Made by a program: the position numbers and the translations under genes
Assembly: GCA_005116835.1 (NCBI GenBank)
Contig: SWDM01000003.1
Location: 1 to 64,000 of the forward strand
Length of the DNA stretch: 64,000 nt
DNA from: Nitrospira sp.
GTDB taxonomy: Bacteria > Nitrospirota > Nitrospiria > Nitrospirales > Nitrospiraceae
Direction of reading: 5' to 3'
Notes under the pieces: model-generated
Database searches by the model: none
The model's input: only the letters and a program-made list of their open reading frames with translations
Told to the model about the DNA's origin: nothing
Part shown: one piece after another, positions 8,304 to 64,000 of the stretch
Numbering within the stretch: the stretch's first letter is position 1
Layout of the letters: every line of letters begins with the position of its first letter

Positions 8304-8366
8304 CGGGATGCGGCCATCGTCTCCAGGCAACTATGACGCATGACGAGCGAGGGCCTGGTGCCGCTC

Positions 8367-8432
8367 TTGTTTATTTAGTTTATTTGGTTTGTTTGGTTGA
8401 ACTAGACTAACCAGGTGAACCGAATCAACCAA
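8367..8432. repeat. R2 word-type inverted repeat, copy C
   Basis: This is a shorter copy: TTGTTTATTTAGTTTATTTGGTTTG on the left half, with AACCAGGTGAACCGAATCAACC on the right. It sits between lon and thiL. The following bases (8432-8455, CCAATCCCTCCAATCTTGCG) resemble the beginning of R3. Confidence 0.65.
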
Positions 8433-8541
8433 TCCCTCCAATCTTGCGCGCCTATCCAGCAGGAGCATTCCCTCATCATGCCGACGATGCTGGTCGCCGA
8501 TTTTACTATCGCTCAGAGCAGATATTCTGGAGCCTGCTAGC

Positions 8542-47028: not shown

Positions 47029-49254
47029 ATGAAGAACACACTGTTACGTAAACTGATGGTCCTCTTTTTTGTGGTGTTCTTCTGCGCAGTCGGCGGACTG
47101 ACCTATTTCGCCTATATATCGAGCCGAGACGCCATGCTGTATGAATTCAAGATTCGTGGGCATTCCCTCGCCAAGACCATCGCATCCGAGTCGAGAACCT
47201 ATTACCGTAACCGCGATATTGAAGGGTTTACCACCCTCCTCCAATCTCTCGGTGAAACGGAAGATGTGCTGGCCATTCTCACGTATCGTTCGCCCAAAAC
47301 CCTCTGGATCGAATTCGCCGGGATCGAACTCACCCCTGAAGATCTGCCTCTGCGCGAGACCACGAATACCTGGCAGCAGGACAAGGTGCTCACGAGGGGG
47401 CATGTCGTGTCGGAATTCGGAAATGCCGTAGTCGACTCAACGAAACCGGTCCTAGGCACTGGACGTGAAGCAGCCCCCCCGCTCGGCTGGATCCGTGTGT
47501 TCCTGGACCGGCGGGCGCTTGAAGAGCGGCTCAGCACGCTGGTCGCCCGCACCCTACTCATCAGCGGCATGACCATCATGATGGGAGGCGCCCTCTTCAC
47601 CTGGCTGCTCCGAAAATCCCTTCATGTCATCGGCCCCCTCACCGCAGCGACCAAGAAGGTCGCTCAGGGAGATTTGCGCACTATCGTCCCGGTATCCAGC
47701 CATGACGAGTTGGGGGAATTGGCGCAAGCTTTCAACCGCATGACCGAGCAGTTGTTGACGACCACCGTGTCCAAGAATTACATGGACAACATCTTTCGCT
47801 CTATGAACGACTCCCTGATCGTCGTCAATCCGGATGGCGCTATTCGAAGCGTGAACCAAGCCGCCTTACAACTCCTCGGATACAAGGAACAGGAGCTGTT
47901 GGGTCAACACATCGACCTCCTCTTCCCAAAGAAGGAAGGGTGGAGTTCAGGAAATGTTGGCGAAGAATTATTACAAAAAGGCGTGGTCAATCATGGAGAA
48001 ACCACGTACCTTACGAAAGACGGACGGGCGATCCCGATGTTCCTTTCCGAGGCAGTGATGCTGGGCGAGAACGGCAGCGTCCAGGGGATCATCTGTGTCG
48101 GCAAAGACATGACCGAGATCAAACAGGCGGAGAAGCAACTCCGGCTACATGAAACGGCCCTCGAATCCGCTGCAAACGCAGTCGTCATTACGGATCGAAG
48201 CGGGTGCGTCACCTGGACCAACACCTCCTTCACATCGTTGACCGGCTATTCTTTTGAAGAAGTAGCCGGCCAGGACATACGCATCCTAAAGTCCGACCGG
48301 CATGACGATGCCTTCTATCAAAACCAATGGGACACGATCCTCAGCGGAAAGGTATGGCAGGGCGAGGTCGTCAATCGGAAGAAGGACGGGAGCCTGTATA
48401 CGGAGGAAATGACGATCACCCCGGTCTACGACCAGAACGGGAAAATCAGCCACTTCATCTGCATCAAGCAGGACGTCACGGAACGGAAGCGCGGGGAAGA
48501 GGCCATCCGGAAGGCACACCAAACGCTGAAAGAACTCGACCAATTGCGATCGCAGTTTTTTTCCGACATCAGCCATGAGCTTCGAACTCCATTAACCGTC
48601 ATTCGCGGCGAAGCAGAAGTGACCCTCCGAGGAAAGGATAAGCCCGTTGCCGAATACAAAACAGTCCTGGAGCAGATCGTCCAATTGACCAACCAGGTCA
48701 ACAAGTTGGTCGGGGATCTGTTATTTCTCTCGCGATCCGAGTCGGGGACCATTGAGATCGTCAAGCGCCCCCTCCCACTGCTCGATATCCTACAGGAGGT
48801 GCATCGGGAAGCGCGTGTACTGGCGGAGAGAAAACACATTGCCGTAACGTTGAACAGCCCGATGGATACCTCTATCATTGTGAACGGAGATCCGCAGCGC
48901 CTTCGACAACTGTTTATGATCATCATCGACAACGCAGTGAACTACACGAAACAGGAAGGAGCCATCAAAGTAGATCTGGAGAGCGACGGGGCCACTGCCA
49001 GAGTGATTGTGGTCGACAACGGCGTCGGGATACCGGAGGGGGATCTTCCCCATGTGTTTCAGCGCTTTTATCGTGTGAAACAGGGGCGTCAAGACATAGC
49101 CCAGAGCGGGTCTGGCCTAGGGCTACATATCGCCAAATGGATCGCCGAGACGCACATGGGAACAGTCTCCATAGCGAGCGTCCTCAATCGGGGAACCACG
49201 GTCACCATTGAACTCCCCCTCCACGGATCCCAGACTCCCCCGACGGGCGGATAG
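47029..49254 (+). CDS. PAS-domain sensor histidine kinase
   Basis: The 741-residue inner-membrane kinase has TM1 (about residues 8-30), a periplasmic sensor region of about 150 residues, TM2 (about residues 183-205), a HAMP linker, two PAS domains (about residues 265-375 and 380-495), a HisKA helix with the phosphorylated His in 'FFSDISHELRTPL' (about residue 515) and an HATPase domain with N and G boxes ('DNAVNYTK', 'DNGVGIP' and 'GSGLGLHIAKW'). The layout resembles PhoR-type kinases. It lies directly after the porin and PstS-like genes and before an OmpR-family regulator. Confidence 0.93.
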   Translation: MKNTLLRKLMVLFFVVFFCAVGGLTYFAYISSRDAMLYEFKIRGHSLAKTIASESRTYYRNRDIEGFTTLLQSLGETEDVLAILTYRSPKTLWIEFAGIELTPEDLPLRETTNTWQQDKVLTRGHVVSEFGNAVVDSTKPVLGTGREAAPPLGWIRVFLDRRALEERLSTLVARTLLISGMTIMMGGALFTWLLRKSLHVIGPLTAATKKVAQGDLRTIVPVSSHDELGELAQAFNRMTEQLLTTTVSKNYMDNIFRSMNDSLIVVNPDGAIRSVNQAALQLLGYKEQELLGQHIDLLFPKKEGWSSGNVGEELLQKGVVNHGETTYLTKDGRAIPMFLSEAVMLGENGSVQGIICVGKDMTEIKQAEKQLRLHETALESAANAVVITDRSGCVTWTNTSFTSLTGYSFEEVAGQDIRILKSDRHDDAFYQNQWDTILSGKVWQGEVVNRKKDGSLYTEEMTITPVYDQNGKISHFICIKQDVTERKRGEEAIRKAHQTLKELDQLRSQFFSDISHELRTPLTVIRGEAEVTLRGKDKPVAEYKTVLEQIVQLTNQVNKLVGDLLFLSRSESGTIEIVKRPLPLLDILQEVHREARVLAERKHIAVTLNSPMDTSIIVNGDPQRLRQLFMIIIDNAVNYTKQEGAIKVDLESDGATARVIVVDNGVGIPEGDLPHVFQRFYRVKQGRQDIAQSGSGLGLHIAKWIAETHMGTVSIASVLNRGTTVTIELPLHGSQTPPTGG

Positions 49255-49257
49255 GAA

Positions 49258-49355
49258 CGACTCAGGTAGATAGGCTGAAATCGGCAGGCTGAAGGTTTTG
49301 GAACTTCGAACTCCGACCTTCGGCCTGAACCCCTTCAGCCTAAACACCTGAGTCG
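49258..49355. repeat. Word-type inverted repeat (GACTCAGGT and GGCTGAA words)
   Basis: CGACTCAGGT and TAGGCTGAA at the left edge return as their reverse complement at the right edge, and GGCTGAAGGTT faces ACCTTCGGCCTGAA within. It lies between the kinase and the first regulator gene. Confidence 0.7.
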
Positions 49356-49435
49356 CTACCTTGCGTTTACGAAACCCGACTTCCTTCGTCAAACAGATAT
49401 CGACCATCCTTTCAGCGAGATAGAATGCACGAGTT

Positions 49436-50119
49436 ATGCGTATCCTAGTGGTTGAAGACGACAAGCGGATTTCAAATTTCGTCAAGCGCGGCCTTGAGGC
49501 AGAAGGCTACCTGGTGGACCTCGCCCAAGACGGCGAGGAAGGGCTTCAAAAGGGCATGACCCCCTATGACATGATCGTCCTCGACCTTCTACTTCCCGGG
49601 AAAAACGGGTACGAGATCTGCCAGGCCCTGCGCCAAGAGCAGATCCAGACCCCGATCTTGATCCTGACGGCCAAAGATGCGCTCCAAGACAAGCTCCGCG
49701 TCTTCGACTACGGCGCAGACGATTATCTCACCAAACCCTTTGCCTTCGAAGAACTGCTCGCCCGGATCAAAGCCCTCCTCCGCCGCAAGCCATCCTACAA
49801 GGAGTCGGCGGCAGAACTAACAATAGGCGATCTCACGCTAAATCGGGACTCCCGGGAAGTTCGTCGAGGAAGCAAGGCTATTTCGTTGACCAGGAAGGAG
49901 TTCGACTTCCTAGAGTTACTGATGTCGAATCCCGACAAAGTCTTAAGCCGCGTGTCGATCCTCGAACAGGTCTGGGGTTATCATTACGACACAATGACCA
50001 ATGTCATCGATGTCTACATCGGATATCTTCGGAAAAAAATCGACGGCGGCGCGAAGCAAAAACTGATTCAAACCGTACGGGATTTCGGATACAAGATCTC
50101 TGCCAACAAGTCCTCCTAG
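49436..50119 (+). CDS. OmpR/PhoB-family response regulator
   Basis: The 227-residue protein has a receiver domain ('MRILVVEDDKRISNFV', phosphorylated Asp in 'MIVLDLLLPGKNG' at about residue 51, Lys in 'DYLTKPFAFEELL') and a winged-helix DNA-binding domain ('LTIGDLTLNRDSREVRRGSKAISLTRKEFDFLELLMSNPDKVLSR...'). It should be the partner of the PAS kinase just upstream. Three 11-bp-spaced repeats 50-80 bases after its stop could be its binding site. Confidence 0.95.
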   Translation: MRILVVEDDKRISNFVKRGLEAEGYLVDLAQDGEEGLQKGMTPYDMIVLDLLLPGKNGYEICQALRQEQIQTPILILTAKDALQDKLRVFDYGADDYLTKPFAFEELLARIKALLRRKPSYKESAAELTIGDLTLNRDSREVRRGSKAISLTRKEFDFLELLMSNPDKVLSRVSILEQVWGYHYDTMTNVIDVYIGYLRKKIDGGAKQKLIQTVRDFGYKISANKSS

Positions 50120-50162
50120 CCTCGTTTCCCTCTGAGCCGGTCTCGAACCCTTCACATCCCAT

Positions 50163-50192
50163 TTCTTATCAATTTCTCATCTACTTCTCATC
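50163..50192 (+). promoter_or_regulatory. Three 11-bp-spaced direct repeats (candidate operator)
   Basis: TTCTTATC at 50163, TTCTCATC at 50174 and TTCTCATC at 50185 recur with exactly 11 bases between starts. Such one-turn spacing is the pattern bound by PhoB/OmpR dimers. They lie about 120 bases upstream of the receiver-only regulator that begins the polysaccharide cluster. Confidence 0.55.
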
Positions 50193-50312
50193 GGCCTTTC
50201 ACCTCCTTCGGGTAGGCTACTACCACGGAAGAGGTGAGACATCCGAAGGCTGGAGCGTTCTGAACGCTGCACGGATTGTGGACGGGCTCTTGAGATGGAA
50301 GGGGAAGATACG

Positions 50313-50867
50313 ATGCGAGTCCTGCTGGTGGAAGACGATGAGCGAATTGCCGGGTTCATGAAACGTGGGCTTGAAGCAGAAGCCTATGAGGTGGATCTCG
50401 CATCGGAAAAATCCCAGACCCTCGCGCTAACCGAAGCCGGCAAGTACGACACCATCATCATGGATATCTTTCTAGGGGCAGATGACGGATTGGATATCTG
50501 CCGGACGCTTCGGCAGCGATCGGTGGGAACCCCCATCGTGATCATGACGGCCAAGGATTCCGCGGAGACTAGACAGGCAAGCAAAGAAGCCGGCGCCGAC
50601 GCGTATCTTCCGAAGCCATTCCCATTTGACGATCTCGTGGCGACGCTCAAACGCCTTCATGGATCTGAGGCGTCGTCTGCTTCCCTGCAGGACTTGCGGC
50701 CAGAACGCCCTGTACCCCGAGAAGGGCAAACCCAGCGTTTACGTTTCCCCACCGATCTCGTCAAAAGAACCATGAGCCTGGACTTACCGGGAAAAGGACA
50801 TGACGGACATTCAGGCTTTCACCTAAGCGGACCCGCGAGTTTCCACAGGATTAAGGAGCCGGCATGA
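50313..50867 (+). CDS. Receiver-only response regulator
   Basis: The 184-residue protein has a full receiver domain ('MRVLLVEDDERIAGFM', Asp in 'TIIMDIFLGADDGLD', Lys in 'DAYLPKPFPFDDLV'), about 50% similar by eye to the regulator upstream ('KRGLEAE' shared). After about residue 125 there is no DNA-binding domain; the remaining 60 residues are proline- and arginine-rich and probably disordered. It must act through protein contact or as a phosphate sink. The AAGGGGAAG ribosome site fixes the ATG at 50313. Its stop overlaps the next glycosyltransferase by four bases. Confidence 0.85.
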   Translation: MRVLLVEDDERIAGFMKRGLEAEAYEVDLASEKSQTLALTEAGKYDTIIMDIFLGADDGLDICRTLRQRSVGTPIVIMTAKDSAETRQASKEAGADAYLPKPFPFDDLVATLKRLHGSEASSASLQDLRPERPVPREGQTQRLRFPTDLVKRTMSLDLPGKGHDGHSGFHLSGPASFHRIKEPA

Positions 50868-52210
50868 AGAAACTTCTCATCTATTCCCACGATACCTTTG
50901 GTCTCGGCAATATCCGGCGCATTATGAATATCGCCACCTATCTACACCGGGCCATTCCGGATGTATCCATCCTCATCGTGACCGGATCTCCCATGATCCA
51001 GAGCTTTCGCATCCCCAAGGGAATCGATTACATCAAGCTCCCCTGTCTCAGCCGAACGGAGAGCGAGGGGTACTCGGCGAAATATCTCGATTCGAAAATT
51101 GGCGACATCGTTCGATTGCGGTCCGACCTGATCCTCTCAGCTGTGCTCAATTTCAAGCCGGACATCATGCTCATCGACAAGAAGCCCTACGGCGTCAAGC
51201 ATGAATTGCGCGAGACGCTGAGTCTCGTGAAGAGCTATTTACCGAGAACCAGAACCATCCTCCTTCTTCGGGACATCCTCGATGCGCCGGAAGCGACCAC
51301 CAAGGTGTGGGAGGACAACGGATATTACGAGGCGGTGAAATCCGCCTACGACCTCGTGCTCGTGTTGGGAACGCCGGAAATATTCGATCCTCGGGTTGAA
51401 TATAACTTCCCGTTTACAGCTTCTGAAAAGGTCGAGTTCTGCGGATACATCCAGCCGCAATTTCTCCTCAGGGACCGAGATGCGATCAGACAGGAGCTGC
51501 AAATCAAGAGCGCTGAGCGTCTCGTCTTGGTGACACCGGGTGGCGGAGAAGACGGGCATGCTCTGATACAGACCTATATTCAGGCCTTGCGACAGATGCC
51601 ACGCGGGGCGCGCATCCGGAGCCTGATCGTCACAGGCCCGGAGATGTCGGAGTCGCAGCGGCATAGCTTGAACCAGTCGGCTCTGCAGTTTCCCGGCGTC
51701 AGCATGCTCGAATTCACGAATGACCTGCCGAGCTACATGAACGCTTCCGATCTGGTGGTATCGATGGGAGGCTACAACACGGTCTGTGAAATCCTCAGCC
51801 TGAAAAAACGCGCAATCATTGTCCCCCGCGTCCGGCCGGTAGAGGAACAATGGATTAGGGCAGAACGGATGGCCAACTTGGGTCTTCTGGCTACCATTCA
51901 TCCGGACTCCCTGACGCCCCAAGGACTGCTTCGCACGATTCTCGCAGAACTCAGTTCAGACCAGTCCCTGCGTCCTACGCTGGATCTGGCCGCGCTGCCC
52001 ACACTTACGAATCATGTCTTGATGTTGCTCGATGGCAAGGACCAACCGGCGCGTCTATCCCGCAATATTCATACTGGTTCATCGCAAAATCGCATCGAAC
52101 CCAGGCGAGGAGCAAGACCTTCCTTCATCTCGCCCCTAGCCTCTGGCCCCAGGCCTCTTGCCCAAACATTGGCGATTGCACCGGCAACGTTCATGGAAAA
52201 TGCGGTCTAG
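50864..52210 (+). CDS. GT-B glycosyltransferase (MurG-like C-terminal domain)
   Basis: The 448-residue protein has the GT-B fold of COG4671-like glycosyltransferases: 'LLIYSHDTFGLGNIRRIMNIATYL' (glycine loop, about residues 4-27), a 'LNFKPDIMLIDKKPYGVKHEL' region and, in the C-terminal domain, 'LVLVTPGGGEDGHALI' and 'SYMNASDLVVSMGGYNTVCEIL', the nucleotide-sugar-binding pattern of MurG and UDP-glucosyltransferases. The C-terminal 45 residues appear disordered. It overlaps the receiver-only regulator (ATGA), implying coupled synthesis. The partial gene at 63532 is a paralogue (same start pattern). Confidence 0.85.
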   Translation: MKKLLIYSHDTFGLGNIRRIMNIATYLHRAIPDVSILIVTGSPMIQSFRIPKGIDYIKLPCLSRTESEGYSAKYLDSKIGDIVRLRSDLILSAVLNFKPDIMLIDKKPYGVKHELRETLSLVKSYLPRTRTILLLRDILDAPEATTKVWEDNGYYEAVKSAYDLVLVLGTPEIFDPRVEYNFPFTASEKVEFCGYIQPQFLLRDRDAIRQELQIKSAERLVLVTPGGGEDGHALIQTYIQALRQMPRGARIRSLIVTGPEMSESQRHSLNQSALQFPGVSMLEFTNDLPSYMNASDLVVSMGGYNTVCEILSLKKRAIIVPRVRPVEEQWIRAERMANLGLLATIHPDSLTPQGLLRTILAELSSDQSLRPTLDLAALPTLTNHVLMLLDGKDQPARLSRNIHTGSSQNRIEPRRGARPSFISPLASGPRPLAQTLAIAPATFMENAV

Positions 52211-52239: not shown

Positions 52240-54888
52240 ATGAAGACGAAACGGCAGATGGTGGGCTATCTTCTAAAGACCTATCCAAAGGTCTCGGAGA
52301 ATTTTATCCTCCAGGAAATCCTCGATCTCGAAGCGCTCGGGCTCGGCCTGGAGATTTTCTCCCTCCAGCATCCGACCGATGCAATCGTGCCCAGCCTGGC
52401 CAAGCAAGTCCTGGCCCCTGTGACCTATCTTCCGAAGTCCATGGGGAAACGACAGGGCCGTCCATTGATGGCCCATCTCCGGCTGTTCACCGCACACCCG
52501 CTGCGATATATGGATACGTTCAGATTTCTGCGGCAACGACTGGAAGGGCCCTCATGGTCGGAGTTTATCCAAGGCGGCTGTCTGGCATGGCTTCTCTTAA
52601 AGTCAGGTATCCGCCATCTCCACGCGCATTTTGCCACTGAGCCGGCCGGAACGGCCGAACTCGTCCATCGTTTCACAGGGATTCCCTACAGTCTGACCTG
52701 CCATGCGAAAGACATTTTCCTGACCGCCCCCGAAGTGCTCCGCCGGAAGATGCACCACGCCACGTTTGTCGTGACCTGCACAGAAGCGAACCGTTCACAT
52801 CTTCAAAACATTGCAAGCAACGGCACGCCGATCCACCGGCTCTACCATGGATTGAACCTGGCTCGGTTCGATGTATTGCGCAAGAACGAATCCTCCGCTG
52901 ACACCAGCCTTCCCACGATCCTCAGCGTAGGCCGACTTCGTGAGAAGAAGGGCTTTCTAACGCTGATTCACGCCTGCCGGATCTTGGTGGACGCGGGACA
53001 TCGGTTCCGCTGCCAAATCGTCGGATATGGGCCGCTCCAGACGGAGATGGAGGAACTGATCCGCACGCTCGGCCTGGGCGAAACCCTGTCGTTGTGCGGC
53101 AAGAAGACCCTGGAGGAAGTCGTGGACCTCTACCGCCACGCAAGCATCTTTGCCCTGCCCTGCCGGGTCGCGGACGATGGAGATCGCGACGGCATTCCGA
53201 ACGTGTTCATGGAAGCGATGGCGATGGGACTTCCGGTCGTGTCGACCGACGTATCGGGGATTCCCGAACTGATCCACCACAATCGAAACGGCCTCCTGGT
53301 TCCACAGCAAGACGCCGATTCACTGGCCAAGGCTCTGAGCCAGCTCCTCGAGAGCCCGGAACTGAGGCTCCGGCTCGGCCAAGCCGGACGGGAAACCATC
53401 GTGAATAATTTTGTGTCCGAGCAGTCGAGCCGGCAGCTCAAAGAGCTGTTCGCCGAGCATATGCAGGCCCAGCCGACGCGGGTCGAATCCCACGAGGCCC
53501 TGGCTACCGCACCTGCCCGGCATGAGCCAACATTGGCTGATGCGACAACTCGCGGAGGGCAGGGAACGATCGGGTACATTTTGAAAGGCTTTCCCCGCAA
53601 TTCAGAAGCCTTTATCACGAGTGAAATCTATCTCTTGGAACGGATGGGGCTCAGGCTTCGGCTGTTCTCGGCCTTTCAGGGCGACGGCGCCGCCACCGGG
53701 TCTCGTGTCCAGGCTATCGCCTCCCCGCTGACCTACCTCCCCGAATGCGACGAGGCCAAGGACGGCGGGTTCATTCCCTGGTTGCTCTCAAACTTCATGA
53801 GATATCTTCCCAGCCACCTCCACGTGCTGCGGATCGCACCTCGCCGATATCTTCGGACGCTGTTCGAATCGCTGCGGCTGAGTGTCCGTTGCCGGTCGGG
53901 AGCCTTTCGGTGGCCCAAGAAAGTGTTTTACAAAGACTTCCTCCGCTCAGGCTTCATCGCCTGCCAGGTCAACGAGGATAGTAATATCCGCCACCTTCAT
54001 GCGCATTTCTGCCACGGCTCGACCACCATGGCCATGTTCGCCGGCATGCTGACCGGTCTTCCGTTCAGCTTTACGGCTCATGCCAAGGATATCTATCTCC
54101 CGAAACTGAATCCCGGTAATCTGCTCCAAATTAAAATGCGGCGGGCGGAGTTTGTCGTCACCTGCACCGGCGCCAATAAACAGTACTTGGAAGAGGCCTG
54201 TCCTGACGGGGCGCCTGTCTATACAATCTACCATGGGGTCGATACCTCCCGGTTTCATCCCTCACCGGACGGAGAGCCTGATCTACCTGTCATTCTCTCT
54301 GTCGGGCGGTTCGTCGAGAAAAAAGGGTTCCCGTTTCTGGTGCAGGCCTGTCGGATTCTCAGAGACCACGGGCATCAGTTTCAGTGCCGGATCGTGGGCG
54401 AGCCGGACGAGCAAAGCGGGCTCGTTCGTCAGTTGATCTTTCAGTCAGCACTTGAGGACAGGATTGTCATCGAGCCAGGCGTGACCCAGGACGAATTACG
54501 AGCCCTATATCGGCAGGCCACCATGTTTGTCCTGCCTTGCCAGATCGTCGACAACGGAGATCGCGACGGTATCCCGAACGTGCTGGCCGAAGCCATGGCC
54601 ACGGGCCTTCCAGTCGTCTCGACGGACATCTCGGGAATTCCAGAGTTGGTGGTTCACCGTAACAACGGCTTGTTGGTCCCGCAGCGAGACGTACATGCCC
54701 TCGCCAAAGCGATGGAAGAGCTGTTGACCGATGCCCAACTGCGACAGAGATTAGGACAAGCAGGGCGAGACACGATCGGACGCATCTTCGACTCAGCAAC
54801 GACCACGAAACAACTATGCTCGTTATTTGAATCGCAGGCGTGCGTCAAATCGACCGTTCAGAAGGAATCTCATGCCACTTGCTGCTGA
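52240..54888 (+). CDS. Tandem-fused double GT4 glycosyltransferase
   Basis: The 882-residue protein consists of two complete GT4-type glycosyltransferases joined head to tail. Half one runs to about residue 430 and half two from about residue 440. Each starts with a similar block ('GYLLKTYPKVSENFI' and 'GYILKGFPRNSEAFI'), has 'HLHAHF' and 'TCHAKDI'/'TAHAKDI' motifs, a nucleotide domain opening ('ILSVGRLREKKGF' and 'ILSVGRFVEKKGF') and the acceptor-donor signature ('DGIPNVFMEAMAMGLPVVS' and 'DGIPNVLAEAMATGLPVVS'). Both halves keep the catalytic-type acids, so both may be active and transfer consecutive sugars. No frameshift is needed to join them. Confidence 0.88.
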   Translation: MKTKRQMVGYLLKTYPKVSENFILQEILDLEALGLGLEIFSLQHPTDAIVPSLAKQVLAPVTYLPKSMGKRQGRPLMAHLRLFTAHPLRYMDTFRFLRQRLEGPSWSEFIQGGCLAWLLLKSGIRHLHAHFATEPAGTAELVHRFTGIPYSLTCHAKDIFLTAPEVLRRKMHHATFVVTCTEANRSHLQNIASNGTPIHRLYHGLNLARFDVLRKNESSADTSLPTILSVGRLREKKGFLTLIHACRILVDAGHRFRCQIVGYGPLQTEMEELIRTLGLGETLSLCGKKTLEEVVDLYRHASIFALPCRVADDGDRDGIPNVFMEAMAMGLPVVSTDVSGIPELIHHNRNGLLVPQQDADSLAKALSQLLESPELRLRLGQAGRETIVNNFVSEQSSRQLKELFAEHMQAQPTRVESHEALATAPARHEPTLADATTRGGQGTIGYILKGFPRNSEAFITSEIYLLERMGLRLRLFSAFQGDGAATGSRVQAIASPLTYLPECDEAKDGGFIPWLLSNFMRYLPSHLHVLRIAPRRYLRTLFESLRLSVRCRSGAFRWPKKVFYKDFLRSGFIACQVNEDSNIRHLHAHFCHGSTTMAMFAGMLTGLPFSFTAHAKDIYLPKLNPGNLLQIKMRRAEFVVTCTGANKQYLEEACPDGAPVYTIYHGVDTSRFHPSPDGEPDLPVILSVGRFVEKKGFPFLVQACRILRDHGHQFQCRIVGEPDEQSGLVRQLIFQSALEDRIVIEPGVTQDELRALYRQATMFVLPCQIVDNGDRDGIPNVLAEAMATGLPVVSTDISGIPELVVHRNNGLLVPQRDVHALAKAMEELLTDAQLRQRLGQAGRDTIGRIFDSATTTKQLCSLFESQACVKSTVQKESHATCC

Positions 54889-56869
54889 ACGACAGGTTAT
54901 TTCCACGACTGCGAGATACGGACGCCTGTTCCATGCTCCATACGACGCATGGACGCCGGACCAGCTCCTCCGTCATTTCCAAACGAGGACGTCCGTCCAG
55001 TATTTCCCCGTTGTGGATGCCATCGAAACCGCACGTGAGAAGATCGAGAACATTACCAACGGCCGGTTTGAGTTCAATCGGGAATTCCATACCGTACCGT
55101 CTCCGATCCGATGGACCGTGAATCCCAGTCATGATCGTGAATGGCTGATACTCCTTCACAAGTTCTACTACGCCGTCGGGCTGGGGATGGCCTACCACGA
55201 GACCAGACAGCCCCGCTATGCAGAAAAGTGGGTCGATCTCACGTCCTCGTGGATCGACGCCGTTCCACTCGATTTCTTACCCAGCGACGTCGCAGGACGG
55301 CGCATCCAAAATTGGATATTCGCTCACTACTACTTTGTGACCCTACACCAAGTCTCTGGTATCGATCCCGATTTCTACATGCGATTTCTCGAGTCGCTTC
55401 ACAATCAGGTGTGTTATCTGCGGGAGCACCTTACGCCTGCGAGAAATCACCGCACCTTGGAGTTGTGCGCGATCTTTTTAACTGCCGTGGCGTTTCCAGA
55501 ATTTGACGAGGCCGAGGACTGGCTTGCATTTTCCACGCAGGAACTGTCGAGCAATATGCAAACCGACTTCTTGCCGGATGGAGTCCATTGCGAACTGTCC
55601 ACCGATTACCATCATCTCGTCCTCAAGAATTACCTCTGGATCCGCAAGCTGGCCCAGATCAATCAGATCGACATGCCCGATTCGATAGACGAGGGGATCA
55701 AGAAGGCGCTTGAGTTCTCCGTCTATTCACACAGGCCGGACGGCGCGATTCCGTCTCTGAGCGATGGGGACAGCCGAAATTTCCTCGACCTTCTTGAACA
55801 GGGCTACGAACTCTACGGAAGCGAATACTTTAAGTATGTATCGTCCCAGGGGAAGAGCGGAACTCCTCCCCCTGAACGATCGAAAGGCTTTGCCGCCAGC
55901 GGGTATTACATTCTCCGGAGCGGCTGGAGCGATCAGAGCGAATCGTATCAGGATCAGCGGTATTTGATCTTCGACTGCGGCCCTCTCGGCGCCGGGAACC
56001 ATGGGCATCTCGATCTCTTAAGTTTCGAGATGGCGGCCTATGGCAAGCCGTTGATCGTCGACCCGGGTCGTTATACCTACGCCGAATCTGGGGAAACCAA
56101 TTGGCGGGCGCTCTTCCGGGGAACCTCCTACCACAATACCGTGCTCGTAGACGGCAAGAATCAAACGAGGTACGAGTGGAAGAAGAACCGATTCAAGGTC
56201 ACTGGTTCAGAACCGGAACGGGAGGTCAAATCGTTCGTCACTGAGCCTGGGATCGACTATCTGCATGGGGTAGCCAGAAGCCACGAATACCCGGTCGTGC
56301 ATGAGCGGAAGGTGGCGTTCATCAACGGAGAATACTGGGTGATTGTCGACCTCCTGAGAGCCACCGAGTCCCACGAGTACGACCTCTTGTTCCACCTCTC
56401 GCCTCCGGCGCAGGATCGGGTCTCAGTCAGGGTGTCGGACGATACGCTGTCGATCCATTCGCCGCAGCTCATTCTTGCGCAGCCTTTCATCCCAAACGTG
56501 CGCCCTTCCATCCAGGGAGGTTTTGTCTCCACCTCCTACGGTGAAAAACATCGTGCCCCGATCGTGCGACTGACTCAGCGAGCTTCAAACGCTTGCTTCC
56601 TTACTGTCCTGTATCCGTATAAAGGCAACAAACCGAATATCTCCGTTGAGACGCCGGAATTCGACGGATCTCCACAGACACTCCTCTTCGGCGAACGGGC
56701 GGCTGCTCGAATCACGATTGCGCGAAATGGGGAATGGTATCGCGACGATCTGCTGTTCACTGATCAGGCCGCCTCGCGCAGCGAAACTCCTAATTGGCCC
56801 TTCTCAAGTCATGTGCGCGTCTCAAGGACGGACCACAATGGCCGTCTTCTGTTTCGGTATCGGGGCTGA
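54872..56869 (+). CDS. Heparinase II/III-family protein, first copy
   Basis: The 665-residue protein has the Hepar_II_III_N alpha/alpha toroid ('HDREWLILLHKFYYAVGLGMAYHE', then 'NHRTLELCAIFL', 'ELSTDYHHLVLKN') and the C-terminal Hepar_II_III beta-sandwich ('DCGPLGAGNHGHLDLLSFEMAAYGKPLIVDPGRYTY'). Both are polysaccharide-lyase type domains that act on uronate-containing chains. No signal peptide is visible, so it may act in the cytoplasm or be exported otherwise. The ATG at 54872 has AAGGA five bases upstream and overlaps the GT gene by 17 bases. The next gene is a paralogue. Confidence 0.88.
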   Translation: MPLAAERQVISTTARYGRLFHAPYDAWTPDQLLRHFQTRTSVQYFPVVDAIETAREKIENITNGRFEFNREFHTVPSPIRWTVNPSHDREWLILLHKFYYAVGLGMAYHETRQPRYAEKWVDLTSSWIDAVPLDFLPSDVAGRRIQNWIFAHYYFVTLHQVSGIDPDFYMRFLESLHNQVCYLREHLTPARNHRTLELCAIFLTAVAFPEFDEAEDWLAFSTQELSSNMQTDFLPDGVHCELSTDYHHLVLKNYLWIRKLAQINQIDMPDSIDEGIKKALEFSVYSHRPDGAIPSLSDGDSRNFLDLLEQGYELYGSEYFKYVSSQGKSGTPPPERSKGFAASGYYILRSGWSDQSESYQDQRYLIFDCGPLGAGNHGHLDLLSFEMAAYGKPLIVDPGRYTYAESGETNWRALFRGTSYHNTVLVDGKNQTRYEWKKNRFKVTGSEPEREVKSFVTEPGIDYLHGVARSHEYPVVHERKVAFINGEYWVIVDLLRATESHEYDLLFHLSPPAQDRVSVRVSDDTLSIHSPQLILAQPFIPNVRPSIQGGFVSTSYGEKHRAPIVRLTQRASNACFLTVLYPYKGNKPNISVETPEFDGSPQTLLFGERAAARITIARNGEWYRDDLLFTDQAASRSETPNWPFSSHVRVSRTDHNGRLLFRYRG

Positions 56870-56872
56870 ATC

Positions 56873-59020
56873 ATGATCAATCATGCTGTCATCAACGGGA
56901 CCACGCTGGATTTCATGAGGGAGCCGTACACCTCTATGCCGGCGGATGAACTGTTGAGTTACTTCCAAACCAGGAACGGTGTCCGGTATTTGCCTCTGTC
57001 ACGTGGAACCCACCTGAACGTGGAACGAGCCGAGAAGATCTTGAAGCATGAGTTCGACTTCAATAACGAGGTCTACCAGCTTCCGGAGAACTTCGACTGG
57101 AAGGCGAACCCGAGCCGAGACATCGAGTGGCTGATCCTCCTGCACAAATTTTACTACACAAAGGATCTTGCCGGCGCCTACGACTACACAGGAGACGACA
57201 CATACACGAGAAAATGGATGGAGCTGGTTTCTTCCTGGATACGAAACGTGCCGGATGGCTTTATCAATAGTCACGTCACAGGCAGGCGATTGCAACAGTG
57301 GCTGTCAGCCTACCACTACTTCGTTCCCGGGAAGCGTTCCAAGGCCATCACGCCGTCGTTTCTCGTGGAGTTGTTCCGGTCGGTCCATTCGCAGACCCTC
57401 TACTTGTGCGAACATCTGACACCGGAAGGCAATCACCGCACCATTGAGCTGTACTCCATCTTCTTGGTGGCCGTGGTCTTTCATGAGCTACGAGAGTCCG
57501 CCTGGCTGCTGGATTTTGCGAAGCAGGAGTTACTGAAAAACATGGAGCAGGACCTGCTCGAAGATGGCGTACATCGCGAGCTGTCTACCGATTACCATCA
57601 TACGGTGCTCAAGAACCATCTACGCGTGCGGGAGTTGGCCGTGCTGAACGGAATCGCACTCTCGCCGAGATTCAACGAAATGATGAACAAGGCGTTGGAG
57701 TTTTCCATGTATGCCCACAAGCCTGACGGGTTGATTCCCGCGATCAACGATGGAGACAGCAACAGCTATCTATCCCTATTGAAGAAGGCATGCTCGCACT
57801 ATCCCAACGAACAGTTTCTCTACGTGGTCTCCAAAGGCAAAGAAGGCACGCCACCATGTGAGCGTTCAAAAGGATTCCCGGACAGCGGATACTATGTGCT
57901 TCGTGGGAGCTGGACCCACGAACCCTATGAAGACGGACTGTATTTGTTGTTCGACTGCGGGCCGCTGGGGTTCGGCAGTCACGGACACTACGACCTACTG
58001 AGTTTCGAGGCAGCCGCCTACGGTCATTCACTCATCGTCGATCCCGGCAGGTATACATACAGTGATGAGAGCGCGGAGGGCATCGAATGGCGGCGACTGT
58101 TCAAGAGCACGGCCTACCACAATACTGTCGTCGTAGACGGAAAGGACCAGATCCCCTATCGCCGCATGAAGCCGGTCGGGCCGGAGCCAAGAGCGAGCGT
58201 GAAGACGTTTGCCACGGCTGATGGGTTTGATTTCGTCCAGGCGCAGGCCTTCAGCCATGAGTATCCAGTTGTCCATGAGCGCACCGTCTTTTTCGCCGTT
58301 CCGGAGTATTGGGTCGTCACGGACAGGTTGTATGGCGAAGGCAGTCATGCCTATGACCTCTATTTCCACTTAGCGCCAAGAGCGCTGGGACGAACAGCCC
58401 TGCACACCAGGGGAAAGAGCCTATGGGTTTCTTCCCCGAATCTTCTAATCGCCCAGCCACTATCGTCGAACATTCACACGTCAATAGAAGATGGTTTTGT
58501 ATCGCCTCAATATGGAGTCAAGCAGGAAGCACCGATCGTAAAATTCACGCAGAAGGCCGATGCAACGGCCTTCTTTCATACCTTGCTCTATCCTTACCGT
58601 AAGGAGCCGCCGATCCTTGACATAGAATCTGTTGCGGTCAGCGACTCCCATGGAGACTGTTCTCAAACACAAGCCACGGCTCTGAAGATCACGGTGTGCT
58701 CAGAGACAGAACAGTATTCCGATTATCTGTTTCTGGCGCATGAACAATCTCTACGCGAGTATTCGTTCGACGACATCGTATGTCGTAGCCGGATGTTGTT
58801 CCTGAGGAAAGACCGTAGCGGCCGTATCGTAAAGCTACAAGCCGAAGGGCTTGAGCAGCTTCGGGTCGGATCAACCGTCCTGATCGAAGGTACCAACGTG
58901 AGTCGGCGGGTGAGCTATGGATCAGGCCGGGTTCATCTTTGCACTCCGAAGAAGTCCCTCAGCATGGACCTCGATCACATCGACGGGCTGTCGGAGTTGG
59001 TCCGCGAGAACCACATCTAA
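56873..59020 (+). CDS. Heparinase II/III-family protein, second copy
   Basis: The 715-residue protein is a clear paralogue of the preceding one: 'RDIEWLILLHKFYYTKDLAGAYDY', 'NHRTIELYSIFL', 'ELSTDYHHTVLKN' and 'DCGPLGFGSHGHYDLLSFEAAAYGHSLIVDPGRYTY' align throughout, but a C-terminal extension of about 50 residues is added. It starts three bases after the first copy, indicating tandem duplication followed by divergence. Both retain the conserved histidines. No signal peptide is seen. Confidence 0.88.
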   Translation: MINHAVINGTTLDFMREPYTSMPADELLSYFQTRNGVRYLPLSRGTHLNVERAEKILKHEFDFNNEVYQLPENFDWKANPSRDIEWLILLHKFYYTKDLAGAYDYTGDDTYTRKWMELVSSWIRNVPDGFINSHVTGRRLQQWLSAYHYFVPGKRSKAITPSFLVELFRSVHSQTLYLCEHLTPEGNHRTIELYSIFLVAVVFHELRESAWLLDFAKQELLKNMEQDLLEDGVHRELSTDYHHTVLKNHLRVRELAVLNGIALSPRFNEMMNKALEFSMYAHKPDGLIPAINDGDSNSYLSLLKKACSHYPNEQFLYVVSKGKEGTPPCERSKGFPDSGYYVLRGSWTHEPYEDGLYLLFDCGPLGFGSHGHYDLLSFEAAAYGHSLIVDPGRYTYSDESAEGIEWRRLFKSTAYHNTVVVDGKDQIPYRRMKPVGPEPRASVKTFATADGFDFVQAQAFSHEYPVVHERTVFFAVPEYWVVTDRLYGEGSHAYDLYFHLAPRALGRTALHTRGKSLWVSSPNLLIAQPLSSNIHTSIEDGFVSPQYGVKQEAPIVKFTQKADATAFFHTLLYPYRKEPPILDIESVAVSDSHGDCSQTQATALKITVCSETEQYSDYLFLAHEQSLREYSFDDIVCRSRMLFLRKDRSGRIVKLQAEGLEQLRVGSTVLIEGTNVSRRVSYGSGRVHLCTPKKSLSMDLDHIDGLSELVRENHI

Positions 59021-59027
59021 GGAAGCA

Positions 59028-60485
59028 ATGCGAGCGATGCAAATCGATTCACAGTGTCCCCACCTTTCGACGGCGTTGCAGCCTTCCCTCATGCAGGAGT
59101 TGCTCCAACGAGCGCTGTTGGATCCGCTCGATCACGAGGGGCAACGACTCCGAATGAATGCCTGCATCGTCGGGGAGAAACGCTATAAACCCGGGAAGAG
59201 CTTCGTGCTGTCCTATCGCCTTCACTTACACGATGCGCACACAGGCGCCAAACATGAGCAGGTCGTCTCGGCTCGACTCTGTCGTCCTGACGAGGGCCTG
59301 GCGGAGTTTCATCGGGCGAGATCCCGGCAGCTTGTTCGCACACCCGGCGTTCGAGCATTGGCGTATATCCCCGAGATAGAGATGGTCGTATGGTCGTTCC
59401 CCAATGATCGCAAGCTGTCGCACCTGCCGAAGCTTCTCGATGTCGAATACCTGAAGACCTGTCTACCCGAGAAACTAAGGGCACTCGGTGTGGGCGAATC
59501 ACATGAGATCGCCGCGATCGTACCGGAGATCTTGCACTACTTGCCGGAACGTTCGTGCATGATTCGTTACCATCTGTCATTGAAGGACCGATCGACCGGG
59601 GAACATGGCGCATTGACGATCTATGGGAAGACCTACCGTGATGAGGACGGCGCCGAGGTGTATTCGATCATGCGGCAACTGTCGGCACAGATACCTGGAA
59701 GCGCCGCACCGCTTGGTTATGATCAGAAGCTGAGGACTGTATGGCAGTCGCACATACCCGGCGAACCCTTCCTCTGGGAAACGCTGGAAGAGGCTCAGAT
59801 ACCGGAAACATTTCGGGGCATCGCGAGAGCTGTTGCACAATTCCATTCTTGCACCGTTCGCACCGACTGTCGATTCGATCTGTCCGACCTCGATGAGTCT
59901 CTCGTAGACACTATTGCAGCAGCCAGGCAAGCATATCCGGACATGGAAGGTCGCATTGCATTACTGGTGAATGCCTTGTTGGCGCAACGCCGTTCCATGG
60001 GTTGGTCGGAGCCCCTCACCACTCCGATTCATCGTGATCTCAAGATGCGCAACTTCCTGATCGATGGGGAGCACATTGCGCTCATCGACATGGACTGTGT
60101 CTGTCTCGGCGACCCTCTCAGCGACATCGGCAGTCTGATCGCGAATTTCTATCTCAATGGAATTCGAGCCGGCTGTCATCAGGACAGGATTCGAGAGGCC
60201 GTGGACGTGTTCTGTCTCACCTACGCCGAATGTATCCCCTGGCGCCTATCCTGGCCACAGGTCGACTGGTACACGGCTGCAGCATTTATCCATGAAGTCA
60301 CGCGTCGGAGCATTCGGCAACTGGATGGCGAGCGCGTGAAGCACATCAGCGAATACCTCGACCTTTGTGAAAGCTTAGTATCCGGCCAATCTGTTGTATC
60401 GGGCGAACAGAATTCAATACACCATGGATCCAAACACGATGCGGGGGTAAGGCATCAGACACCCAGAACGTGCCGTGAACGCTGA
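59028..60485 (+). CDS. APH/choline-kinase-fold phosphotransferase, first
   Basis: The 485-residue protein has an N-terminal domain with 'KRYKPGKSFVLSYRLHLHD' (about residues 42-60), which resembles the nucleotide-binding beta-sheet. Its C-terminal lobe contains the canonical catalytic loop 'PIHRDLKMRNFLI' and metal-binding 'ALIDMDCVCLGDPLSDI', as in aminoglycoside and choline/ethanolamine kinases. Its substrate is unknown. The ATG at 59028 has AAGGA four bases before it; the frame extends into the preceding gene without features. The C-terminal 45 residues are polar and disordered. Confidence 0.82.
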   Translation: MRAMQIDSQCPHLSTALQPSLMQELLQRALLDPLDHEGQRLRMNACIVGEKRYKPGKSFVLSYRLHLHDAHTGAKHEQVVSARLCRPDEGLAEFHRARSRQLVRTPGVRALAYIPEIEMVVWSFPNDRKLSHLPKLLDVEYLKTCLPEKLRALGVGESHEIAAIVPEILHYLPERSCMIRYHLSLKDRSTGEHGALTIYGKTYRDEDGAEVYSIMRQLSAQIPGSAAPLGYDQKLRTVWQSHIPGEPFLWETLEEAQIPETFRGIARAVAQFHSCTVRTDCRFDLSDLDESLVDTIAAARQAYPDMEGRIALLVNALLAQRRSMGWSEPLTTPIHRDLKMRNFLIDGEHIALIDMDCVCLGDPLSDIGSLIANFYLNGIRAGCHQDRIREAVDVFCLTYAECIPWRLSWPQVDWYTAAAFIHEVTRRSIRQLDGERVKHISEYLDLCESLVSGQSVVSGEQNSIHHGSKHDAGVRHQTPRTCRER

Positions 60486-60495
60486 TTAATCAATT

Positions 60496-62151
60496 ATGGA
60501 TAACGTAACCAAATTTACTGACCCATCTGTGGTAACGATCCGAGACAAGAACACTGCAAGCGCACGTCGCTGCATCGCGCTGTACCCCGGCGCCTTTCGG
60601 CCACCCCATGCGGCGCATTTGACGGCAGTCCTCGATCTTGCAGTGAGACCGGATGTCGACGAGGTCGTCGTGATCATCTCTAATCGATGCCGGAATATAC
60701 CTGGAACGACCAAGGCGCTTGACCCCGATGTCGCCCGACAGATCTGGTCGATCTATCTACACGGCGTCACCAAGGTCCGAATTGAGGTCGCCCCACACAC
60801 CTCTGTGAAACATGCCCTCAGCTACTTTGACCGCCTTGAAGCCGGCGACGCCCTGCTCTTCTGCGTCGGAGAAACTGACTTCGAGCAAGGGGATGAAAGG
60901 TTCGAACAGATAGAAGACCTTTCCCGCTGCACCGGAATTTCCTCCCGCCTTGTCGCCGCCCCTACCGGTTCCATCACGGTCCGGGCGACCGATTTGAGAG
61001 CGCTGTTAGGCCTTGGAGAGGCTGGGCGAGAAGCCTTTACGTCCGCGCTTCCCGCTCATCTGAATGCGGAGCAACGCGCGCGCGTCTGGGAGACTTGCCA
61101 TAACGGAATGCGAGAGACGGGCGAGATTATTCGGGAGAAGGTACTGGGCATCATCGGCACACACAACCTAGGCGACGTGAAAGAGATTTGCAGCCTGTGT
61201 GAGGGCAAACTCGATCAAGTCTACCGTGTGTCGTTCGCAGACGGCCGACGTCATGTCATCAAATATGCCGGCGATACGGTCGGGGCGGAATCTGTTGGAG
61301 AACAATTACGATTCAAACCGAAGAGACGCCTGTCGGCGGAACGGCGCGCCCTAAACAGATTGCGCGATAACGGGATCGATGAGGTCGATCTCCCGAACGT
61401 GGTGTTGTTCGATAAAGAGACGCTGACGCTTGTGTTGACGGAGGTATGCCAGGGTGGAAGATCTTTACTGGACGATCTCAAGAAAGGTCTGTTCGATCCG
61501 AAGGTGGCCAGTCAGGCGAGCCATTTCCTGGCCCGGTGCCATACCTTGGCGGCGCCCATTGCTCCCGTGTGGGGCGACCAAGACACAGACCGGCTCCATT
61601 GGCGAACGATGCTCGCGTTACGGACGGTGGGGATCGAAACAGGGCCGGCCTCCTGGCAGATTCGAAACGATTTGGCCGCGGTGAAACGCGCAAGTGACAC
61701 AGCGAGCGAGCAAGGGGATAGAAACCGGCTGTTGATACTGAACGACGTTCCCCACAACATCCTTCTGGGCACACAGAGAATCGGCGTCATCGATTTTGAA
61801 CTCTGCTCAAGTATTGGAGATCCTGCGTACGATCTCGGTCTTTTCCTGGGAGACTATATATTCTTTGGTCTGACCACCCAGTCCGGTTATTCCGGTCAGA
61901 TCGCCCTTCAGGAAGCGCTGAATGCCTATCGACAACGAGTCGGAAATCGATGGGTGGCTATGCGCGCGCGGGTCGTGTCGTTCGCAGGCGCAGCCATGCT
62001 CTCTCGGCTCATGGGTCATCGCCGAATGGACGTTCACCCGGTCGAGCCTCGCATCTTTAGCACGGCTGCAGCATTACTCTCGTCAGGGCTTAGGGAAATC
62101 GAAGAGATAGACTCGATACTTGGCAATGCAATTTCGGGCCGGTTAGCGTAA
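60496..62151 (+). CDS. Fusion of HxGH nucleotidyltransferase and APH-fold kinase
   Basis: The 551-residue protein joins two domains. Residues about 25-175 match the HxGH cytidylyltransferase/adenylyltransferase superfamily: 'ALYPGAFRPPHAAHLTAVLDLA' (GxFxPxHxxH motif, about residues 30-40) and 'TVRATDLR' (ISxTxxR-type motif, about residue 168). Residues about 225-540 are a choline/aminoglycoside-kinase fold with 'LILNDVPHNILLG' (catalytic-loop position) and 'GVIDFELCSSIGDPAYDLGLF'. The usual His-Gly before the catalytic Asp is replaced by Leu-Asn. A kinase fused to its own nucleotidyltransferase would phosphorylate and then activate an alcohol or sugar. Its first 15 residues resemble the start of the gene at 62165. 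Confidence 0.8.
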   Translation: MDNVTKFTDPSVVTIRDKNTASARRCIALYPGAFRPPHAAHLTAVLDLAVRPDVDEVVVIISNRCRNIPGTTKALDPDVARQIWSIYLHGVTKVRIEVAPHTSVKHALSYFDRLEAGDALLFCVGETDFEQGDERFEQIEDLSRCTGISSRLVAAPTGSITVRATDLRALLGLGEAGREAFTSALPAHLNAEQRARVWETCHNGMRETGEIIREKVLGIIGTHNLGDVKEICSLCEGKLDQVYRVSFADGRRHVIKYAGDTVGAESVGEQLRFKPKRRLSAERRALNRLRDNGIDEVDLPNVVLFDKETLTLVLTEVCQGGRSLLDDLKKGLFDPKVASQASHFLARCHTLAAPIAPVWGDQDTDRLHWRTMLALRTVGIETGPASWQIRNDLAAVKRASDTASEQGDRNRLLILNDVPHNILLGTQRIGVIDFELCSSIGDPAYDLGLFLGDYIFFGLTTQSGYSGQIALQEALNAYRQRVGNRWVAMRARVVSFAGAAMLSRLMGHRRMDVHPVEPRIFSTAAALLSSGLREIEEIDSILGNAISGRLA

Positions 62152-62164
62152 GCCGGGAATACAT

Positions 62165-63535
62165 ATGAATAACTTAACCAAATTTGCCAATCCATCTGTC
62201 ATGAAGGCCGTGCTCACGGAGCGGCTTCCGTTGCTTTGCCCAGGCAGTTCGGGAATTACAAGCTGCCGCGTTCAACATGTGCGGTACTCCCCGAAGAAAC
62301 AGCCGGAGAATGAAAGCCTGGCTGCCTGCTACCACCTTGGGATCAGAGACAAGGACTCTCAACGCGAGCGACAAGTGATCCTGTACTGCCAAGCTTTTCT
62401 CGGTGGGCACAGCCAGAGAGAGATCGACCGCTTGGCTCGGCGCAGCGCAGACACCGCGGCCCTCCATAGCATGCCGCATCACTTCCGCGATCTAGATCTG
62501 CTTGTGTGGGTCTTTCCAGAAGATCCGGCGATCCCGCATCTGCCGGAGGTGAGCGATCCGGAGCGGGTCATGGCGCATCTCCCCTATACATCCCTTCCAA
62601 ATGGTCTTGATGAGGCGAGGGACATCAGGTCAGTCAACGTGGAGGTTGTCAACTATCGCCCGGAGTTACGATGTACGACCCGGTACGATCTCAGCTGGGG
62701 AGCAGCCGATCAGGCTCAGTCACTCACCATCTTCGGCAAGACGTTTCGAAGCGGGGAGGGACACGACGTCTATACCAGAAGTGAATACTTATGGAACCGT
62801 TTCTCCGGCGTTGACGAGGAGGTTCTTTTCTCCCAACCGTTGGGATACAAGTCTGAGGTACAGACCCTCTGGCAACTCGGCGTCGAGGGAACGCCGCTCT
62901 GTCGTGCGATCGGGAAAGACAATTGCGATGCGTATCTTAAGACGGTCGCCAAGGGGTTGGCCATGGTTCAGAACAGTGACTTAGCTGGTCTCCCGAAATG
63001 GACTCTGGATGAGCACCTCGCTGAAGCCGATAAGAAGATTGAGAAACTACGCCGGGCGGTTCCCTCGCTGCTGGAAGAATTGAACCTCCTCGCCCAGCTT
63101 GTCCATCGCGACGCCCCAAGCCTCTCCGACATTCCCCTTCGACCGATATATTGGGATTTCCATGTCAATCAGCTCTTGGCCCAAGACGGAAAGGTCGCCT
63201 TCTTCGATTTTGACGAGCTTGTTATCGGAGACCCCTTGCAAGATATTGCGAATTTTATCGTGGACCTACAGTTTCGTGACGTGAGCCAGCCTTTGGCTCG
63301 ACGGATGGCGAAGTCGTTGTACAACTCCTACCGTTCTCAGGTGAAGTGGGAGGTTCCGATCGATCGCGTCAGGTGGCACGCGAGGGTTCAGTTCATCAAT
63401 AAGGCCTACCGTGTTTACATTCAACAGTCTCCTGACGTCAAAGAGACTGTTAGTGAACTCATCCATATGGCGGCCCAAGAGACGACGTTGGGCTGGATCG
63501 GCAACGCGAGCCTGATCGAGGAGATGGCACGATGA
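62165..63535 (+). CDS. APH/choline-kinase-fold protein, third
   Basis: The 456-residue protein begins with the same short peptide as the preceding gene (MNNLTKFANPSV). Its C-terminal lobe has 'PIYWDFHVNQLLA' and 'VAFFDFDELVIGDPLQDIANFI', matching the APH catalytic loop and DFD metal motif but with Tyr-Trp in place of His-Gly before the catalytic Asp. It also shares a 'LTIFGKTFRSGEG' block with 'LTIYGKTYRDEDG' in the first kinase-fold gene, so these two are related. The substrate is unknown. Its stop overlaps the following gene (ATGA). Confidence 0.78.
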   Translation: MNNLTKFANPSVMKAVLTERLPLLCPGSSGITSCRVQHVRYSPKKQPENESLAACYHLGIRDKDSQRERQVILYCQAFLGGHSQREIDRLARRSADTAALHSMPHHFRDLDLLVWVFPEDPAIPHLPEVSDPERVMAHLPYTSLPNGLDEARDIRSVNVEVVNYRPELRCTTRYDLSWGAADQAQSLTIFGKTFRSGEGHDVYTRSEYLWNRFSGVDEEVLFSQPLGYKSEVQTLWQLGVEGTPLCRAIGKDNCDAYLKTVAKGLAMVQNSDLAGLPKWTLDEHLAEADKKIEKLRRAVPSLLEELNLLAQLVHRDAPSLSDIPLRPIYWDFHVNQLLAQDGKVAFFDFDELVIGDPLQDIANFIVDLQFRDVSQPLARRMAKSLYNSYRSQVKWEVPIDRVRWHARVQFINKAYRVYIQQSPDVKETVSELIHMAAQETTLGWIGNASLIEEMAR

Positions 63536-64000
63536 AGAAACGGGTACTCATGTATTGTCAGCATGTTCTCGGGATGGGCCATCTCGTGAGAAGCCTGGAG
63601 ATCGTTCGTGCGCTGAAGGACTGGGATGTCACGTTTCTAAACGGCGGCGATCTCTGCCCAGGGATGGGATTCCCCCCTCAGACAGAGGTCATAAATCTCC
63701 CTCCGATCAAGTCGGAATCGGATTTCAAGACCATCCTGGCTGCGGAGAAGGGTCAGGATCTGGAGGCCATAAAACGGATTCGCGCTCGTCGAATCCAGGC
63801 AGAGTTTGCCCGCATCCAGCCCGATGTCTTTCTCATCGAAATGTTTCCGTTCGGACGGAAGCACTTTGCGTACGAGCTGGTGCCGGTTTTAGAGCAGATC
63901 CGGCTCAAAAAAATGCCGACAGCGGTGGTGTGCAGCCTTCGCGACATTCTGGTCAATAATAAACGGAATCAGGCGCAGCATAATGAACGAGCGATCACGC
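63532..64000 (+). CDS. GT-B glycosyltransferase, partial at the window end
   Basis: The visible 156 residues have 'RVLMYCQHVLGMGHLVRSLEIVRAL' (GT-B glycine loop) and 'IQPDVFLIEMFPFGRKHFAYELVPVLEQI', the same plan as the glycosyltransferase at 50864, of which it is a paralogue. It starts with an ATG overlapping the previous stop. The frame remains open at base 64000, so its C-terminal domain lies outside the window. Confidence 0.85.
   Translation, partial: MKKRVLMYCQHVLGMGHLVRSLEIVRALKDWDVTFLNGGDLCPGMGFPPQTEVINLPPIKSESDFKTILAAEKGQDLEAIKRIRARRIQAEFARIQPDVFLIEMFPFGRKHFAYELVPVLEQIRLKKMPTAVVCSLRDILVNNKRNQAQHNERAIT

Follow-up and report, generated by a model that had tools for sequence, protein, structure and literature searches.

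Several enzymes are known in which a kinase and an HxGH nucleotidyltransferase share one polypeptide. In HldE, which makes ADP-heptose, the kinase is of the PfkB type, and in NadR, which makes NAD, it is of the P-loop type and follows the transferase; neither kinase has the APH fold. LicC has the NTP_transferase (GT-A-like) fold, which is unrelated to HxGH. Nitrospirota include nitrifiers, and their surface polymers have been little studied. The closest architectural precedent for the protein described here is LicCA of Treponema denticola, a nucleotidyltransferase joined to a choline kinase, which makes CDP-choline for phosphatidylcholine (cited in PMC8590670). Like LicCA, our protein combines a nucleotidyltransferase with a kinase of the APH/choline-kinase fold, but it is encoded in an exopolysaccharide operon and its kinase loop is degenerate. 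A preliminary description of this DNA had called the order of transferase first and APH fold second unusual; LicCA is a precedent for that order, which is less unusual than supposed, although LicC belongs to another transferase family. Kinase-nucleotidyltransferase fusions are thus already known, and the pairing of HxGH with the APH fold is a further variant.

The N-terminal domain shares with NadD, CoaD and NMNAT the fold and the second signature motif, and has the first in a variant form. It differs from them in having HxAH in place of HxGH, a SNRCRxxPGT segment of its own, identity of about 10-20% and a fused APH domain. The protein resembles HldE and NadR in uniting kinase and HxGH nucleotidyltransferase, but its transferase domain has no profile match to the HldE-type transferase (hhalign 0.6%). 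Methylthioribose kinase, maltokinase and glucosamine kinase are, among solved structures and profiles, the closest matches to the APH half of the fusion (2pyw) and to the two separate kinases beside it (2olc, SjGlcNK). To these sugar kinases the fused domain is only weakly similar, its HxD is lost in the window (the whole 64-kb stretch of DNA analysed), and no substrate signature could be assigned to it. Literature searches for the fusion or the operon returned nothing relevant, and the combination of an adenylyltransferase-like HxGH domain with an APH-fold kinase is not described in what was searched.

The fusion gene and its transferase domain

The gene encodes a genuine protein of two domains, and it is conserved: homologues at 42-80% identity retain both. 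The frame contains no internal stops, and dN/dS against the closest homologue is 0.25 for the protein, 0.18 for the transferase domain, 0.14 for the N-lobe and 0.32 for the C-lobe. A chance ORF is ruled out by the homologues and the dN/dS, and a pseudogene or frameshift artefact by the absence of stops, the dN/dS and the operon spacing of 10-13 bases. The motifs GAFRPPHAAH (residues 32-41), RATDLR (163-168) and VIDFE (431-435) named in the preliminary description are all present in the frame, and its central proposal, an HxGH-type nucleotidyltransferase joined N-terminally to an APH/choline-kinase-fold domain, was borne out by AlphaFold2 fold matches and Pfam PF01636.

Table 1. Positions of the operon genes, domains and motifs in the window
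Feature	Position	Strand	Remarks
GT28/MurG-like glycosyltransferase	50864..52210	+	operon member scan
Glycosyltransferase, two tandem GT4 modules	52240..54888	+	882-aa frame
Heparinase II/III-like protein	54827..56869	+	PF16889/PF07940
Heparinase II/III-like protein	56873..59020	+	PF16889/PF07940; no evident N-terminal hydrophobic stretch
APH kinase A	59028..60485	+	ends 10 bases before fusion; PF01636 6.9e-17; intact HRDLKMRN...IDMD
Fusion gene	60496..62151	+	ATG start, 551 aa; HxGH-type nucleotidyltransferase and APH-fold (pseudo)kinase
Nucleotidyltransferase domain	60568..61110	+	residues 25-205; CoaD/NadD-like fold (AF2 model, fold search, NadD profile matches)
GAFRPPHAAH	60589..60618	+	variant HxGH motif; HxAH in 11/11 copies covering it
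SNRCRNIPGTT	60679..60711	+	residues 62-72; strongly conserved transferase segment, SNRCR invariant in 11/11
RATDLR	60982..60999	+	ISxTxxR counterpart of NadD/NMNAT; low-threshold hhalign onto V-S-A-S-D-I-R of Nitrospira NadD
APH-fold kinase domain	61189..62148	+	residues 232-551; PF01636 1.3e-11, 2pyw E 6e-4
Lys256	61261..61263	+	nucleotide-binding Lys in conserved KYAGDTV; kept in 12/12 copies covering the site
ILNDVPHN	61735..61758	+	degenerate catalytic loop; no His, N416 in place of the catalytic Asp, Mg ligand Asn421 retained
IDFE	61789..61800	+	Mg-binding Asp433; Asp invariant
APH kinase B	62165..63535	+	loop YWDFHVNQ...FFDFD
GT28 + DUF2334 (deacetylase-like) protein	63532..64000, continuing beyond window	+	672 aa; L011:3533-5551

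The fusion, present once in its own genome, occurs patchily in 12 of the 269 genomes of the host class in Nitrospirota, a count that takes in complete, partial and contig-split copies (two of the 12 are partial or contig-split). It is conserved but not widespread, and no assigned function was found for it. Searches of the 269 class genomes turned up no orthologue of the transferase on its own. The nearest named genome is that of Nitrospira sp. CG24A (80% identical); this was the only one found by a contig scan with exact peptide patterns, at the same locus as in genome G212, and such a scan reaches close relatives only and says nothing on absence outside Nitrospirota. In genome G376 the gene is divided between two contigs that have the residues ELRPV in common at their ends, from which we infer that its transferase and APH parts are one fusion. 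Searches of plasmids and viral contigs gave no match to the fusion, and PADLOC gave no defence match.

In the first motif, which reads H-A-A-H or H-x-A-H, the Gly is replaced by Ala in every copy covering it and both His are kept. The second, wherever it is covered, reads R-[ASG]-T-x-[LV]-R, and H38, H41, T165 and R168 are conserved wherever copies cover these residues. The GAFRPPHAAH region is the sole match to G.F..[PIL][HT]..H in the six frames of the window, and the T..R motif follows it in frame. The AlphaFold2 model of this domain alone, made from two input sequences, was of moderate quality (pLDDT 66, pTM 0.61). In the PDB its top matches were without exception entries for CoaD, NadD or NMNAT: Foldseek gave E 1e-5 (prob 1.00), and a VIA comparison gave Z 11-13, the best being Z 13.2 over 155 residues at rmsd 3.5. 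The HxGH fold was thus supported over residues ~25-205, and the structural refutation test set by the preliminary description came out in favour of that fold. The whole-protein AlphaFold2 model (two sequences) reached pLDDT 37, and its secondary structure was kept out of the evidence.

Profile comparisons pointed the same way with weaker scores. The N-terminal part as a single sequence gave weak NadD/CoaD/NMNAT-type matches in NCBIfam (E 0.02-0.2), and a 13-row homologue profile gave weak NadD matches in the PDB (E 0.05-0.5). With profiles built from Nitrospirota, hhalign gave 64% for NadD and 40% for CoaD, against 1.1% and 0.2% for the reversed controls. Against the NadD model, 9 of 11 real domains outscored the best of 2000 shuffled sequences (7.1 bits), and the other two scored lower (4.8 bits). 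An N-terminal domain of HxGH-type fold that resembles adenylyltransferases is supported by the model. The nucleotide is probably ATP, as AMP donor, on the basis of the fold neighbours only; a CoaD/NadD-like fold as modelled leaves ATP versus CTP, and the acceptor, undecided.

The polysaccharide operon and its separate kinases

The gene order from 50864 to ~72360 of the contig begins with a GT28-like protein, a double GT4, two heparinase II/III-like proteins and APH kinase A. It runs on through the fusion, APH kinase B, the GT28 + DUF2334 protein and an MsbA-like ABC exporter, and ends with a protein weakly similar to polysaccharide deacetylases, a GT4, a glycosyltransferase-like protein and an alginate-export porin. 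Around the fusion the genes form a tight run on one strand, in which kinase B follows after 13 bases and is itself followed by a start/stop overlap. Judged by its gene families, the operon is one for the synthesis and export of a surface polysaccharide. The fusion usually lies in this one operon type, which is conserved across three families; the GT28-DUF2334, ABC, porin, APH and fusion genes are kept in related genomes and their order varies. In family f2, no match to the heparinase-like gene was found in the stretch taken. Both heparinase-like proteins of the window have an N-terminus that is not hydrophobic, as judged by eye, so a cytoplasmic role is possible for them. Neither an epimerase nor another nucleotide-sugar-making gene was seen among the scanned operon members.

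Kinase A has its best solved match in methylthioribose kinase 2olc (profile E 2.7e-8). Family B gives weak profile matches to maltokinase, AmgK and glucosamine kinase; most relatives of kinase B read HGDFHxxQ...FDFD, as in glucosamine kinase and maltokinase, and kinase B itself has YWD for HGD. In SjGlcNK, an actinobacterial glucosamine kinase with the loop DVHGDFHVGQI and DFD, D-x-H touches the sugar and Gln binds Mg (PMC6520443). These similarities point to sugar kinases for A and B. A further family B paralogue with HGA is found in genome G290 (L015:11211-12569). Loop erosion thus also reaches the separate kinases (YWD in kinase B, HGA in the G290 paralogue).

The APH-fold domain and the proposed function

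Pfam PF01636 matches residues 272-453 with 45.1 bits against a gathering cut-off of 23.2, and the methylthioribose-kinase relative 2pyw is a weakly similar profile match. In the alignment, the window loop L-I-L-N-D-V-P-H-N lies opposite H-L-D-x-x-P-K-N, and when tested against the catalytic HxDxxxxN it lacks both the His and the catalytic Asp (HxD reads I-L-N). The preliminary description had noted the missing His-Gly and suspected altered activity. The observation is correct and the defect is larger than noted, since the catalytic Asp is also lost; the suspicion holds in the form of a probable impairment. Among the homologues, the His of HxD is replaced by I or M in Nitrospira and G157-family copies and by N in G480 and G486, and the Asp has become Asn in the window, G157 and G480. 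In the tree these three Asn copies sit on separate tips with relatives that keep Asp, the position of G157 in its group being not settled. In four genomes HxD keeps its canonical form (HLD in G376, G484 and G487; HFD in G483). Lys256, Asn421 and Asp433 are present in all copies that cover the sites. Asp-to-Asn changes in kinase folds do not always abolish activity. Because HxD is lost, Asp has turned to Asn on three tips and the C-lobe is less constrained than the N-lobe (dN/dS 0.32 against 0.14), phosphotransfer by the window protein is probably impaired, and the binding of nucleotide and metal seems to be kept. On the best reading, the APH half was ancestrally an active kinase, intact in four genomes.

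The G376 genome (99% complete) has the intact fused loop HLDLSPKN. Nowhere in this genome do the separate kinases have a close relative, the only family-B match being weak (E 1.6e-5), and the GT28-DUF2334 gene is missing from it too. It fits an originally self-sufficient enzyme, as one case. A simple rule by which loss of the fused kinase tracks the separate kinases was rejected, since G483, G484 and G487 keep HxD although separate kinases are present. At L017:2981-3541 of G376, what is left of the MsbA-like ABC gene lacks the Walker A part and lies beside an intact porin gene; in this genome the operon has decayed and yet retains the fusion.

We tentatively favour, at somewhat less than even chances, the reading that the fusion is an activating enzyme dedicated to exopolysaccharide, whose kinase half is probably impaired here and whose substrate would be supplied by the neighbouring kinases. 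This reading is built on the two-domain gene, its folds and families, the operon context, the HxD loss and the kept Mg and nucleotide residues; the reaction, the preference for adenylyl over cytidylyl, the substrate class and the supply by neighbours are inferred. Phosphorylation of a sugar or polyol would fall to the separate APH kinases, joined in some lineages by the APH domain of the fusion. The HxGH-type domain would then place a nucleotidyl group on the phosphorylated product, probably AMP from ATP because the nearest folds of the domain are adenylyltransferases. The activated precursor would pass to the GT28/GT4 glycosyltransferases of the operon, and the polymer would exit via the MsbA-like exporter and the alginate-type porin. 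The APH domain would originally have been the matching kinase, and the window copy would still bind Mg-nucleotide. Against a tie to the polymer, the fusion persists in G376 without the GT28-deacetylase gene and an intact ABC exporter, and its role may therefore not be bound to the polymer. If the favoured reading is right, the fusion would point to activated sugars being made by salvage, or by direct phosphorylation and adenylylation, in place of the usual sugar-1-phosphate uridylyl route. The orthologues form a natural series from canonical to pseudokinase loops, in which the function of the APH half could be probed.

A fully active bifunctional enzyme in the manner of HldE or LicCA is unlikely, though it survives best among the alternatives. 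On this view the transferase would at once activate a sugar or alcohol that the APH half had phosphorylated, and the N416/I414 loop would do no harm, either since the Mg ligands are enough or since the adjacent D417 serves as base. The presence of N421, D433 and Lys256 in all copies that cover them, the four canonical loops and the purifying selection on both domains speak for it. Loss of the catalytic Asp in three lineages and of the His in most speaks against it, as does the G157 loop, which reads N-Y and so has no adjacent Asp as a stand-in.

Unlikely too, and bolder, is the proposal that Nitrospirota hold an undescribed class of enzyme for exopolysaccharide activation, an HxGH adenylyltransferase permanently joined to an APH domain that repeatedly turns pseudokinase and would serve as nucleotide sensor or substrate presenter, with an unusual adenylylated (ADP-linked) precursor as the building block of the polymer. 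It is doubtful whether the APH half is a genuine pseudokinase with a regulatory or scaffolding effect on the transferase through nucleotide sensing, or a domain that has acquired another chemistry. The three independent Asp-to-Asn changes and the strongly constrained nucleotide-binding lobe would suit this, and kinase-fold proteins without catalytic residues do take on other jobs, as the RosX cyclase does (PMC12291118), but orthologues with canonical loops occur within this family and this type of operon, and the substrate lobe is still under purifying selection.

The preliminary description had drawn an analogy with the Kennedy pathway, which was not supported. An enzyme that decorates the polymer by way of CDP-choline, CDP-ethanolamine or CDP-glycerol is improbable. 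In its favour are the LicCA-like domain order and two Pfam families: of the 13 members, four match Choline_kinase (best E 2e-6) and three match CTP_transf_like (best E 0.0039), the window protein not being one of the three. Against it, the closest neighbours by profile and by fold are adenylyltransferases (absence from the top list does not exclude kinship with CCT, ECT or TagD), the adjacent kinases look like sugar kinases, and no LicD-, TagF- or CDP-alcohol-transferase-like gene occurs among the scanned operon members. A polysaccharide role for the fusion is more likely than a Kennedy-pathway role. Least probable is a NadR-like NAD salvage enzyme, with an NMNAT-like domain and a nucleoside kinase of different fold: NadD/NMNAT are among the nearest folds and NadR has the same domain order, but a separate NadD-like gene is already present in the genome (L067; its CoaD-like gene is at L055) and the fusion lies in an exopolysaccharide operon.

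Local variation in and around the operon

Directly upstream of the operon (window 47029-50867) lie genes for a PAS-type histidine kinase and two response regulators, and related response regulators are also found upstream in L012 and L017. At the place of the double GT4, L013, L014 and L039 carry a single version of ~450 aa. At L012:8745-10620 (CG24A / G212), the corresponding heparinase-like gene is cut short at 430 aa and overlaps the gene of an APH kinase that is itself shortened (227 aa), which looks like a deletion of the middle; a further full APH kinase (7238-8740) stands upstream. Finally, 36 bases around the start of the fusion (60495-60530) are identical at 30 of 36 positions to those at the start of kinase B (62164-62199), the two sequences being MDNVTKFTDPSV / MNNLTKFANPSV (score 42 vs <=29 for shuffles). 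This likeness is likely to be a short local duplication of the start region, because the fusion start in L012 lacks the 36-base match.
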